Virus record (IMG/VR): IMGVR_UViG_3300034954_000840 | Location: 1 to 28,421 of that record | DNA from: a virus | Length of the DNA stretch: 28,421 bases | Reading direction: 5' to 3' (one strand) | In this document: positions 17,307 to 24,477 of the stretch, piece after piece | How positions within the stretch are numbered: the first letter of the stretch is position 1 | Layout of the letters: every line of letters starts with the position of its first letter | Made by a program: the position numbers and the translations under genes | Notes under the pieces: model-generated | The model's input: the letters and a program-made list of their open reading frames with translations, nothing else | The model's database searches: none | Told to the model about the DNA's origin: nothing

Positions 17307-18001
17307 TATACAAATCCTCTATCAAGTAAGCTACCATTGGCCATTTCACTAAGACTAAAATCTTTTCTCGTTGACATAAGATCTGGTTGGTACCTTAGAT
17401 CAATAGCAATAAACATCTGTGCAGGTAGAATCACATTGCTTCTTCCAACTCCACCTATTCTTGCTAAGCCTTGTTGAAGGCCTACATCTTGGTTTCCTAG
17501 TTGCTGTGATATACTTTGAGATCCTGATTCAACATAGTCTATTTCACTATCAAGTGTGTAAGAAACGTTTGCAACCACACACGGCCAATTACTAAATTGA
17601 TTTGCACCATAGGCACTAAACAATAGCACAGGAGGTGGTGTTCCTCTGTGTGTATCTTTTTCACCAAAATGAGACAAACTGGCCATTCTTAAAAAATGCA
17701 AACAACCTTGTGTGTAACGCAATTCATCTTCTGTTTGATTTGTAAACAGGCCTGTAACCTGCACAGTAGGTGAAGCGGTGTTTTGATAATACACAGGTTG
17801 ATAATTTGTGTGAGGCAGATCGTATGTTCCATAGTTAGCACCTCGTTGATATGTGATGGTTGGTGTGTATGGAAAAACCATAGCACCTGTACGACCAGTG
17901 TTAGATTTTAACGCTCTAGCAGGACCTCCAAACAGTAAATTGTTTACCTTTTGGCCTCCAGTGCCTTTTGGTTTAAGCATGGGTCTAGCATCAGTTCGCA
18001 T
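17306..18001 (-). CDS. Baseplate tail-tube cap/initiator protein (gp48/gp54 type)
   Basis: A 231-residue protein with the typical order of this family: a FPYTPTITYQRGANYGTYD start, NYQPVYYQN, a VQVTGLFTNQTEDELRYTQG strand and helix, CLHFLRMASLSHFGEKD, GTPPPVLLFSAYGANQ, and NWPCVVANVSYTLDSEIDYV. In T4, gp48 and gp54 sit on the hub and start polymerisation of the tail tube; both are longer (about 320-365 residues), and I cannot decide which one this corresponds to. It starts 11 nt inside the end of the nucleotidyltransferase gene. Confidence 0.8.
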   Translation of the reverse strand: MRTDARPMLKPKGTGGQKVNNLLFGGPARALKSNTGRTGAMVFPYTPTITYQRGANYGTYDLPHTNYQPVYYQNTASPTVQVTGLFTNQTEDELRYTQGCLHFLRMASLSHFGEKDTHRGTPPPVLLFSAYGANQFSNWPCVVANVSYTLDSEIDYVESGSQSISQQLGNQDVGLQQGLARIGGVGRSNVILPAQMFIAIDLRYQPDLMSTRKDFSLSEMANGSLLDRGFV

Positions 18002-18599
18002 TTAATCTTCCATTTATAAAATTGTAAACACCGTCATCAAACTTGCCAAAGAATTTTTTAAACACCTGTGCTTTTGCTTGATCTGTGTTGTTTGGATCGC
18101 TCATTGCTGATCTAAAATCGCTGGCACTCATACCACCTTGCATTTCAGGAGCAACATAAACGTATGCTCTATCATCACTGGCTGGTTGTAGTTCTCCATC
18201 TTTGTATGGTTGTAACACTCCACCAGTGCCAAGTCGTCCGGCATCTTTTGCACTATACACCACAACGATTGCTGTTTTGTTAGGATCTCTGCCTATCTTG
18301 GCAAGATCTGGTCTGTATGGATTTGTGTCAATGATCTTGTCTGCAGGAATGCCATGCATTTTGGACATGATAGATTTCTTCTCATCAAACGTAAAAGGAT
18401 CACTGCTGAAGTCTTTCATTGCATGTGCCTTTTGTGCTTTTTGACTGAAAGTTGTAGCGATAAATACATTAGCGGTCCCAAACTTTGATACTAAATGATC
18501 ATAAACTTGTTGATGTGCTATATGCATAGGTTGAAAACGACCGCCATAAAAAACTGCGATGTTGTCTGCTACTGCTTCTGTAATTTCACTAAATCTCAT
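17991..18599 (-). CDS. Cytidylyltransferase-like nucleotidyltransferase
   Basis: A 202-residue protein with the nucleotidyltransferase signature GGRFQPMHIAH near the N-terminus (residues 19-29; His26 and His29 form the HxGH-type pair, with Ala in place of Gly). A MSASDFR segment near residue 160 matches the ISaTxiR motif that closes the nucleotide site. These enzymes transfer a nucleotidyl group from CTP or ATP to a small acceptor; the substrate cannot be told. It is the first gene of the leftward baseplate operon, preceded by AGAGG at good spacing. T4-like marine phages are known to carry such a gene near baseplate genes, where its role is unclear. Confidence 0.8.
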   Translation of the reverse strand: MRFSEITEAVADNIAVFYGGRFQPMHIAHQQVYDHLVSKFGTANVFIATTFSQKAQKAHAMKDFSSDPFTFDEKKSIMSKMHGIPADKIIDTNPYRPDLAKIGRDPNKTAIVVVYSAKDAGRLGTGGVLQPYKDGELQPASDDRAYVYVAPEMQGGMSASDFRSAMSDPNNTDQAKAQVFKKFFGKFDDGVYNFINGRLNAN

Positions 18600-22784: not shown

Positions 22785-23222
22785 ATGTGGACATACAAAG
22801 GCAAAGCCGTAGATACTGTTTCAGAAGACTACGTTGGCTTTGTTTACTTAATCACAAACAAAATTAATGGTAAGAAGTATATAGGCAAGAAACTTGCCAA
22901 ATTTAAAAAAACTAGACCACCATTAAAAGGCAAGAAAAACAAAAGAAGAACTACAGTAGAAAGCGATTGGCGTGAGTATTGGGGTAGTTCAGATCACTTA
23001 TTGGCAGACGTAGAACAATTAGGCTCAGAAAATTTCACCAGAGAAATACTTTATTTTTGCACAACACGAGGCGAACTTAGTTACTTAGAAGCACAAGAGC
23101 AATTTGCTAGACAGGTGCTACTAACAGACGATTACTACAATGGCATAATAAATGTACGAGTCGGCAGTTCCAAGGCCCTTAAAGAAAATCTCCAAAAACA
23201 CAAAAACATATCCTCTCTATAA
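22785..23222 (+). CDS. GIY-YIG nuclease domain protein
   Basis: A 145-residue protein with VYLITN at the GIY position, YIGKK at the YIG position, the basic stretch KKTRPPLKGKKNKRR, EYWGSS, and SYLEAQEQF with the probable metal-binding Glu. This is the pattern of free-standing GIY-YIG endonucleases of phages. There is no recognisable DNA-binding module after the nuclease, so it may be a repair or small homing nuclease. No strong Shine-Dalgarno precedes the ATG (only AGGTAA at 22769-22774). It lies directly before the 350-nt RNA-like region, and its stop codon is inside a TATAAAAA octamer. Confidence 0.75.
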   Translation: MWTYKGKAVDTVSEDYVGFVYLITNKINGKKYIGKKLAKFKKTRPPLKGKKNKRRTTVESDWREYWGSSDHLLADVEQLGSENFTREILYFCTTRGELSYLEAQEQFARQVLLTDDYYNGIINVRVGSSKALKENLQKHKNISSL

Positions 23223-23225
23223 AAA
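23218..23225 (+). promoter_or_regulatory. Late-promoter-like octamer before the RNA region
   Basis: TATAAAAA, one mismatch from TATAAATA, overlaps the stop of the GIY-YIG gene. Transcription would begin near 23232, exactly at the start of the structured non-coding stretch. Confidence 0.4.
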
Positions 23226-23562
23226 GCATTGAGATTGTATACAAGCTGTACCGTCGGATCTTGCTTGAGGAAAGCAAACCAAATGACCAGGCTCTACTGC
23301 GCCATTGTAACCTGGAAGTAGCCCGAATGTCGTCATCATGGCTTAGGGTGGTCTTGCGTTGATAAAGATGTACGTAAAGGGGTATCGCTCAACCGCCTCT
23401 GCCGTAAGGTTGTACAATGATGATGCGTCGGTTCCGAGACAAATGGACCAGTTGTGCTTTGCCGTAACAGGCTAAGTGCGACTGAACCAAAGCCAAATAG
23501 ACTAAGTATAACAAATGATTCGAGTCTTTAGACGAAGAATCCGATGAACTTGTTCATCGTTT
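23226..23562 (+). ncRNA. Candidate structured RNA, class unknown
   Basis: No plausible ORF lies here, and by hand count 23281-23460 is about 49% G+C, against about 38-40% in the genes around. Helices found by reading: 23261-23266 with 23272-23277 (6 bp); 23287-23291 with 23311-23315 (5 bp); 23331-23339 with 23417-23425 (9 bp), enclosing 23346-23352 with 23392-23398 (7 bp) and a GUAA-capped hairpin at 23401-23410; 23444-23489 (long hairpin); 23517-23541; and 23542-23559. The helices are nested and do not clash, as expected for a real fold. It could be a free RNA made from the 23218 promoter or a long leader of the ATP-grasp gene. It does not match tRNA, tmRNA or RNase P RNA as far as I can judge. 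Confidence 0.65.
23444..23489 (+). ncRNA. Strongest hairpin of the structured RNA
   Basis: Bases 23449-23457 pair with 23476-23484 over 9 bp, including three G-U pairs. The helix continues 23458-23463 with 23470-23475 with a single U-U mismatch, closed by a 6-nt loop (23464-23469). A 3-bp helix, 23444-23446 with 23487-23489, adds to the base. The G-U pairs make the partner strands unlike an ordinary DNA palindrome and favour function as RNA. Confidence 0.7.
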
Positions 23563-23567
23563 AGGAG
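23542..23567 (+). promoter_or_regulatory. Stem-loop next to the ATP-grasp ribosome site
   Basis: CGATGAA (23542-23548) and TTCATCG (23553-23559) form a perfect 7-bp stem with a CUUG loop, ending 3 nt before the Shine-Dalgarno AGGAG (23563-23567). No U-run follows, so it is not a terminator. It may protect, present or control the ribosome site. Confidence 0.5.
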
Positions 23568-23574
23568 ATTTTAA

Positions 23575-24477
23575 ATGTGGTTGGGCGATGAACAGTTTTC
23601 GCATCATTGCGAGAACTTGGAGTTAACTCCTTCTGTCGATATTCCTTTGCACGATCCTGATGCTTTAGATTTAAATCCTACTCTTGAATGGATGTTTGAC
23701 AAAAGGCGTATTCTGGATATACAGAACATGAAATGGTTTCCGCATGGAAAACTTACTCCTGACTTTTTACCTTGCTTTTCAAAGCCTTTGCAGAACATAT
23801 GGGGCATGGGCATAAACACTTCACATTGTGTGGACAAAGAAGATTATCTAAAAAACTACTACCCAGCACACATTTGTATGGAAGTATTAACAGGTGAACA
23901 CAGTACATTTGATATTGCTCTGGATCAATGCAAAGTGCTTGATTGGAGATGCACAGTAGGATATTCAATAGGGGATGGTAGATTTTCGCATTGGCAAAGC
24001 ATACCAATACATGAATCACCCAATGAAGTTGCAACATTCAACAGAAGAAGATTCATTCTAGAATTTATAGATAATCATCTGCAAGAGTATACAGGCATGT
24101 TGAATTTTGAATTTATAGGAGACAAGTGCATAGAAGTACATCCTCGTTGTAACACAGAAATGATGTGTGCGTGGGGACCACAGTATATCAAACAGGTTAA
24201 ATACTTTTATGAACAGGGCACCTGGCATGCTATCAAAGACTTCAAAGAAGGTTGTACTGTTCCTGTTTGGGGTAAACTGAACAAAAAATACAAAATGAAA
24301 TTGGCAGATAGAGTCAAGTTTTCGGTTGCAGATGGCGTAAACTTCGTGTACTATGATATCGACAACATAGAAGATTCTAATCCTCCAGGAGGTCAACGAC
24401 TTGCCTTTGTGGCAGGCCACGATTATGAAAAATGTAGAGAACATGCACAAAAACTTAGTGATTACTTCAATGGATGA
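23575..24477 (+). CDS. ATP-grasp-like ligase domain protein
   Basis: A 300-residue protein, start supported by AGGAG 7 nt upstream. ATP-grasp features by reading: LPCFSKPLQNIWGMGI (65-80) resembles the Lys and Gly-rich loop that binds ATP; CMEVLTGEHSTFDIAL (101-116) resembles the E..GxE.S.D strand; GMLNFEFIGDKCIEVHPR (174-191) resembles the G..N.EFI......E.NPR metal-binding end, with Glu179 and Glu187 as likely ligands and His in place of the usual Asn. The usual N-terminal pre-ATP-grasp domain is absent or very short. Such enzymes join a carboxylate to an amine or thiol using ATP; the substrate is unknown. The next gene overlaps by 8 nt. It is not a T4 core gene. Confidence 0.55.
   Translation: MWLGDEQFSHHCENLELTPSVDIPLHDPDALDLNPTLEWMFDKRRILDIQNMKWFPHGKLTPDFLPCFSKPLQNIWGMGINTSHCVDKEDYLKNYYPAHICMEVLTGEHSTFDIALDQCKVLDWRCTVGYSIGDGRFSHWQSIPIHESPNEVATFNRRRFILEFIDNHLQEYTGMLNFEFIGDKCIEVHPRCNTEMMCAWGPQYIKQVKYFYEQGTWHAIKDFKEGCTVPVWGKLNKKYKMKLADRVKFSVADGVNFVYYDIDNIEDSNPPGGQRLAFVAGHDYEKCREHAQKLSDYFNG

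Follow-up and report, generated by a model that had tools for sequence, protein, structure and literature searches.

What occupies the gap that lies 3′ of a GIY-YIG nuclease gene in this T4-like phage? An earlier note on the DNA had proposed a structured, new RNA of about 330 nt, and we followed up this proposal by comparing the gap with its relatives. The window, by which we mean the whole 28,421-nt stretch analysed, has no ORF of at least 50 aa within 23223-23574, as had been noted. The reported enrichment in G+C (about 49%) was also reproduced (49.5% at 23300-23499 against 36-39% around it). Based on the block conserved in relatives and on the covariance model R1 (match at 23326-23504), a non-coding structured RNA was delineated at 23205-23562 on the + strand, with approximate ends. 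It begins about 20 nt further 5′ than had been proposed (about 23205), so that the GIY-YIG ORF runs ~18 nt into it. The RNA measures ~350 nt in the window and up to ~450 nt in relatives. With no match in Rfam and with compensatory changes in homologues, the central proposal is supported. Comparative DNA evidence indicates that the window RNA is real, conserved, structured, and largely undescribed, and argues that it is a gene in its own right.

Known families did not account for the window RNA. No Rfam family matched the window at the gathering score, and a relaxed search (E up to 10) returned only two chance snoRNA scraps. ARAGORN and Rfam gave no tRNA or tmRNA in the RNA, RNase P had no Rfam match in the window, and the group I and group II intron models were unmatched there at either threshold. 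The earlier note had likewise found no match to tRNA, tmRNA, RNase P, or group I intron cores. GOLLD and ROOL had no Rfam match in the window or in the relatives searched. The covariance model for Polynucleobacter-1 (RF01718) also left the window RNA unmatched at its gathering score, but it matched the first ~140 nt of eleven distant relatives with E-values of 1e-14 to 1e-25 (L035, L044, L095, L109, L113, L114, L118, L127, L130, L133, and L138). Polynucleobacter-1 has been listed as ‘Burkholderiales, fresh water/estuary’ alone (Weinberg 2010, PMC2864571). These matches show that RF01718 represents the 5′ portion of a larger RNA, carried mostly by phages, and the window version is too different for an RF01718 match. 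The description of the RNA as new holds for the window itself, where Rfam matches are absent, but must be qualified, given that the 5′ third of relatives matches Polynucleobacter-1. Rfam included only this third, from some relatives and under a bacterial name.

The folding energy of the window RNA on the + strand was marginal, being only weakly better than that of shuffled sequence (z=-1.68; 6 of 100 shuffles as good). Proof of the fold consequently comes from covariation rather than energy, and covariation settles against a chance fold. The opposite strand was rejected as the folded one. Its fold was poorer (z=-0.30), and the excess of G-U over A-C cells (139 versus 19) assigned the + strand.

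The RNA is present in well over a hundred stretches sampled from uncultured T4-like phages. Among near relatives, its nucleotide identity is 97-99% (95% for the partial L006). In comparison with L004, the RNA is 97.4% identical, while segE is 84.8% and the downstream ORF 88% identical; 28 of 41 fourfold-degenerate sites in segE are unchanged. Purifying selection on the non-coding RNA sequence is evidently strong. More distant copies (63-66% identity) were found at the same place in L012, L013, L020, and others, and the core is nearly invariant among phages from different habitats. Many viral contigs end inside the RNA (including L008, L009, L015, L018, L048, L052, L054, and L056), which looks as if its conservation disrupts metagenome assembly; more copies may be hidden.

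To define the structure, window-group helices were registered by hand across 15 sequences. A second alignment (A1) held 62 cores of another type, with pairs counted against a stated pseudoknotted structure. The 5′ hairpin h0 (23214-23234) pairs UCUC (23214-23217) with GAGA (23231-23234), and exchange of UCUC/GAGA for CCUC/GAGG in relatives provides a compensatory U-A to C-G change in its stem. This hairpin contains TATAAAAA, previously read as a late promoter. At its position, relatives have TATGAAAA (L020), TACAAAAA (L117), or no TATA-like sequence at all (L149). As TATA is not kept among relatives and the element sits within a compensated hairpin, a late promoter was rejected. A hairpin at 23261-23277 (UUGCUU-GAGGA-AAGCAA), supported by fold and alignment, is partly kept in relatives. 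Hairpin h3 (23287-23315; CCAGG 23287-23291 with CCUGG 23311-23315) has compensatory changes in three of five pairs (GUGGG/CCCAC), and its homologue in other types is the GGCUCUGAGAAAAAGCAACC hairpin.

Helix a (23321-23349) pairs GCCCGAA (23321-23327) with UUAGGGU (23343-23349). Within the window group, compensatory changes were present in 5 of 5 tested pairs and 37 of 40 cells were paired, while none of 1000 shuffles was as good. Pseudoknot 1 (PK; 23332-23424) has its 5′ arm in the helix a loop, where GUCAUCAU (23332-23339) pairs with AUGAUGAU (23417-23424). All 40 PK cells were paired in the window group, with compensation in three pairs, and all six pairs were compensated among the 62 distant relatives. 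Even at 98% identity to the window, L008 has a U-A to A-U swap in PK. Helix b, or pseudoknot 2 (23358-23393; GUUGA 23358-23362 with UCAAC 23389-23393), varies within the window group among GUUGA/UCAAC, GUUGU/ACAAC, and GUUUU/AAAAC; in the 62 distant relatives it was 98.7% paired, with three of five pairs compensated. Helix c (23369-23416) joins UGUAC (23369-23373) to GUACA (23412-23416). It is replaced by UGUAU/AUACA in L004, AGCG/CGCU in L012, and AGUG/CACU in L149, and was compensated in 4 of 4 pairs in distant relatives. Helix d (23379-23399; GGGG 23379-23382 with CCUC 23396-23399) encloses the most conserved loop (GGUAYCG...ACCGCCUCU) and is itself near-invariant, with a single compensation (A-U to U-A in L035). 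A GUAA-capped hairpin at 23401-23410 (GCC-GUAA-GGU), identified from sequence and alignment, is a variable extra hairpin among relatives.

Further 3′, helix f (23451-23482) is a 13-pair hairpin of GUUGUGCUUUGCC and GGCUAAGUGCGAC, corresponding to the G-U-rich hairpin described previously. It has a C-G to U-A compensation in L149 and compensation in three of eight pairs in distant relatives. Two hairpins assigned from the fold complete the RNA. The stem of the first (23517-23541; GAUUC-GA-GUC-UUUA-GAC-GAA-GAAUC) is broken by G-A steps, and other types are arranged similarly. The second (23542-23559; CGAUGAAC-UU-GUUCAUCG) directly precedes AGGAG (23563-23567), the ribosome-binding site of the next ORF. 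The helices listed in the earlier note were present in the fold, including the 15-position hairpin at 23451-23482 and both 3′ hairpins, but its nested topology was incorrect. With PK extending from the helix a loop and helix b crossing helices c and d, two pseudoknots are present in the core. The ‘9-bp closing helix’ exists (23330-23339/23417-23426), but as PK.

In A1, two-sided changes were found in 26 of 37 pairs, and 94.2% of cells were paired compared with 80.2% after shuffling. The covariation score was 0.431, versus 0.172±0.007 for shuffled alignments. Sliding the structure reduced these values to 36-48% and 0.05-0.11, a control biased in favor of the A1 structure as this was drawn from the same sequences. 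Compensatory changes were thus clear within the window group and also among the 62 distant relatives. Model R1, a core covariance model, was built from A1 with window-type sequences excluded, making it an independent check on the A1 structure. Searching the 28-kb window with R1 gave a sole match at 23326-23504 (23.7 bits, with a rough E-value of 4e-4), and R1 found most other types where expected. Among the features that define the family, helices a, c, and d and pseudoknots PK and b were all present in the window RNA and show compensatory changes across relatives, with just one for helix d.

Exactly one R1 match was found in 14 of 16 whole phage records; the two others, of divergent type, had none. 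In L017, L026, L028, L040, L065, and L068, the RNA is of strongly divergent types that differ in their 5′ domain (GUUUGAUCGGGGUAGCUCGAUCC... or AAGGUUGGCGGGCC...). Most of these have the core element GUCGACGUAGGUUGGGAAAGGUCAGAGCCC, and some match R1 weakly. A blastn search of the phage collection placed the RNA in no isolated phage, and R1 revealed no credible RNA in Melnitz, P-SSM2, or phiM12. The Melnitz match (13.9 bits, E=0.34 genome-wide) was antisense to annotated genes and was rejected as chance.

Helix f is flanked by a twin motif, with copy 1 at 23438-23448 (GACAAAUGGAC) and copy 2 at 23492-23502 (GCCAAAUAGAC) on the + strand. Copies 1 and 2 of the window have G(A/C)CAAAU(G/A)GAC in common, and 5-6 common letters of the twin 7-mer are kept (CAAAU plus flanks). 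In general, the 3′ hairpin lies between CUC-N7-G and UCU-N7-A. Within an RNA, the two 7-mers were identical in 90 of 92 cases tested, while 17 versions occur between RNAs. For A1, N7 was the same in both copies of all 62 sequences (nine versions), against a shuffled mean of 11.6 and maximum of 25. Other types agreed in 28 of 30 cases, including RNAs without segE and chromosomal RNAs. Antiparallel pairing of the two copies was only weakly above shuffled (0.77 versus 0.68 at the position tested) and was rejected. The complement of the 7-mer within the same RNA locus was no more common than with swapped 7-mers. The twin motif would be accounted for if a single partner bound at two equivalent sites, or if homology were required. 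The rule of identical 7-mers in many versions is a sharp, testable clue to the partner of the RNA.

The usual phage gene order is gp47-gp46-(cargo)-segE-RNA-(cargo)-baseplate-hub gene, with the last on the other strand (gene names rest on Pfam and PHROGs matches). To assess the cargo, we took the first ORF on the strand of the RNA, at a distance of up to 250 nt, and compared it with the other ORFs of the loci, using a capsid-targeting pattern composed from general knowledge of T4 signals. Such a start was present in 27 of 49 downstream ORFs and in 27 of 859 ORFs elsewhere in the loci. Counted by family, the proportions were 11 of 20 and 14 of 184 (p=8e-7, for loci that share ancestry). With a stricter pattern, applied earlier, the counts were 24 of 58 and 21 of 816. 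The window's own downstream ORF did not fit the pattern. T-even internal proteins are diverse counter-restriction proteins which are alike in such a targeting sequence alone (PMC3012670). A second protein family that looks capsid-targeted (M[KR]I.EIL.E...LDEGP..NK.G..VG) was seen 1.6-1.9 kb after the RNA in L094, L044, L162, L167, L169, L178, L197, and L202. Judging from position, the RNA may be linked to the phage head.

The RNA also occurs in bacterial chromosomes. A pattern scan combined with R1 detected it in 7 of 237 genomes of a Methylococcaceae family, with up to three copies per genome; a wider scan, covering 369 genomes from the class, recovered the known one alone. The Methylococcaceae copies have a ~405-nt block of 84-95% identity with unrelated flanks. 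RNA islets in these MAGs comprise L223 (38-2311), L246/L251, L247/L250, L249/L252, L224, L225, L226, and L228, some adjoining tRNA genes, integrases, or defence-type genes. Those of L246/L251 (contig of 152,914 bases) and L247/L250 (228,625 bases) are surrounded by ordinary chromosomal genes, making mis-binned phage unlikely. In L223, 2.1 kb are enclosed by a 96-bp direct repeat whose start falls inside the 3′ end of tRNA-Cys, as would be expected of integration sites. Several islets have in common a small basic protein, encoded divergently from the RNA, together with a small protein of ribbon-helix-helix-like type (a fold read by eye), and minimal islets contain little beyond the RNA and two small genes. 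The small protein begins MK/RIxEL... and matches the capsid-targeting pattern partly (fully in L224 alone). Islets L225 and L250 also carry defence-type genes (TIR/CAP12, MmeI, and NYN/HEC-09). Overall, the islets look like phage satellites or defence islets.

What might the RNA do? At the level of DNA, our comparisons demonstrate its fold, strand, homology across types, single detected copy per record, and independence from its neighbors. We consider it probable that the RNA is an autonomous, trans-acting RNA gene of a large group of uncultured T4-like phages, associated with proteins inside the head and having a late, head-linked, or satellite-linked role. A + strand transcript would form a compact two-pseudoknot core, followed by a strong hairpin between the twin motifs and then by the terminal hairpins. 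Acting in trans, this RNA may scaffold a particle of RNA and protein (or of RNA only), in which the twin motifs would be two equal binding sites for one partner. More weakly, it may have a role in the late programme around the phage head. This is suggested because the adjacent cargo gene often has a capsid-targeting-like start, and because the satellite- or defence-like islets pair the RNA with a small protein of similar start.

Alternatively, the RNA could be transcribed in infection to neutralise a defence of the bacterium, for instance by serving as a decoy, and in islets be carried to interfere with, or protect against, competing phages. Its position at the cargo site of genes resembling the T4 internal proteins (PMC3012670) and the defence-type genes of islets L225 and L250 agree with this. 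However, arms-race decoys usually diversify, while the core is nearly invariant across habitats and the twin motif universal, which renders a counter-defence RNA unlikely.

A structured transcript might instead act in cis, priming replication or marking DNA for packaging. Replication of ColE1 is primed by RNA II. An element of this kind would require a satellite to have merely its own DNA copy, consistent with the common ~405-nt block between unrelated flanks, with the minimal islets, and with one copy per phage. Nevertheless, the RNA shows no tie to an origin or packaging site, and several segE-bearing T4-like phages have no detectable copy. We regard a cis-acting replication or packaging element as improbable.

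It is conceivable, though doubtful, that the RNA and a capsid-targeted protein form a module common to lytic T4-like phages and minimal (~2 kb) islets, which would live off, or fight, T4-like phages. The RNA would let an islet be recognised by the phage replication or head-filling machinery. The twin 7-mers, changing only together, would be equivalent sites that a single partner recognises, as when strand exchange or homology is required.

The remaining explanations tie the RNA to adjacent genes. The upstream gene (22785-23222, + strand) was confirmed as GIY-YIG by Pfam (PF19835, SegE_GIY-YIG; E=3.2e-35). The downstream gene had been called ATP-grasp, but this 300-aa ORF (23575-24477, + strand) matches no ATP-grasp model, and having nothing above the curated cut-off in Pfam and nothing in PHROGs, it was not assigned to a family. 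Elsewhere in the window, a putative cytidylyltransferase-like gene lies among tail and baseplate genes (17991-18599, - strand; PHROGs phrog_395, E=1e-7). A motif search and a segE search showed that most SegE-like genes in these viral contigs have such an RNA next. This arrangement, with the RNA directly 3′ of the SegE-like gene at most loci, could reflect a guide or partner RNA of the nuclease, like the omega RNA of IscB. The nuclease is also short (PF19835 spans residues 2-122 of 145). Yet the two also occur apart. A PDDEXK_15 gene replaces segE beside the RNA in L111 and L097, the RNA lacks an adjacent nuclease in L107 and L173, other genes intervene in L032, L037, and L128, and segE is divergent from the RNA in L096. 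Conversely, P-SSM2, phiM12, and Melnitz have a SegE-like gene without detectable RNA. Near relatives have no hypervariable, guide-like segment between them, and HEARO was unmatched in the Rfam search. An RNA-guided SegE is therefore very unlikely. Such changing neighbors, which fit the observation that exchanged segments are often bordered by nuclease genes (PMC10448857), argue against a segE UTR, a leader, or a fixed partner of the nuclease. Although the window RNA lies between same-strand genes and 12 nt before the next start codon, a segE 3′ UTR or riboswitch leader is scarcely credible, as the upstream gene is variable, absent, or divergent and, at 57 of 103 loci, the gene that follows is convergent.

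If the RNA acts in virion assembly, replication, or counter-defence, it would join a programme usually treated as protein-only. The methanotroph islets may permit its study in cultivable bacteria.

The RNA has features in common with several known systems. The upstream gene belongs to the same Pfam family as the SegE-type homing endonucleases of T4-like phages, but the RNA lies outside the endonuclease gene and persists without it. In common with HEARO, the omega RNA of IscB, it is a structured RNA adjoining a nuclease gene, but here the nuclease has another fold, Rfam gives no match, and the RNA is separable from the nuclease. Polynucleobacter-1 resembles the 5′ ~140 nt of eleven distant relatives, although its Rfam model leaves out the pseudoknotted core of ~250 nt as well as the terminal hairpins and the hairpin with the twin motif. 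GOLLD and ROOL are large, elaborately folded, phage-borne RNAs of unknown function (PMC12286853). While the window RNA is about half their size or less, with neither an Rfam match nor a tRNA in the window, it is likewise large, elaborately folded, and phage-borne.
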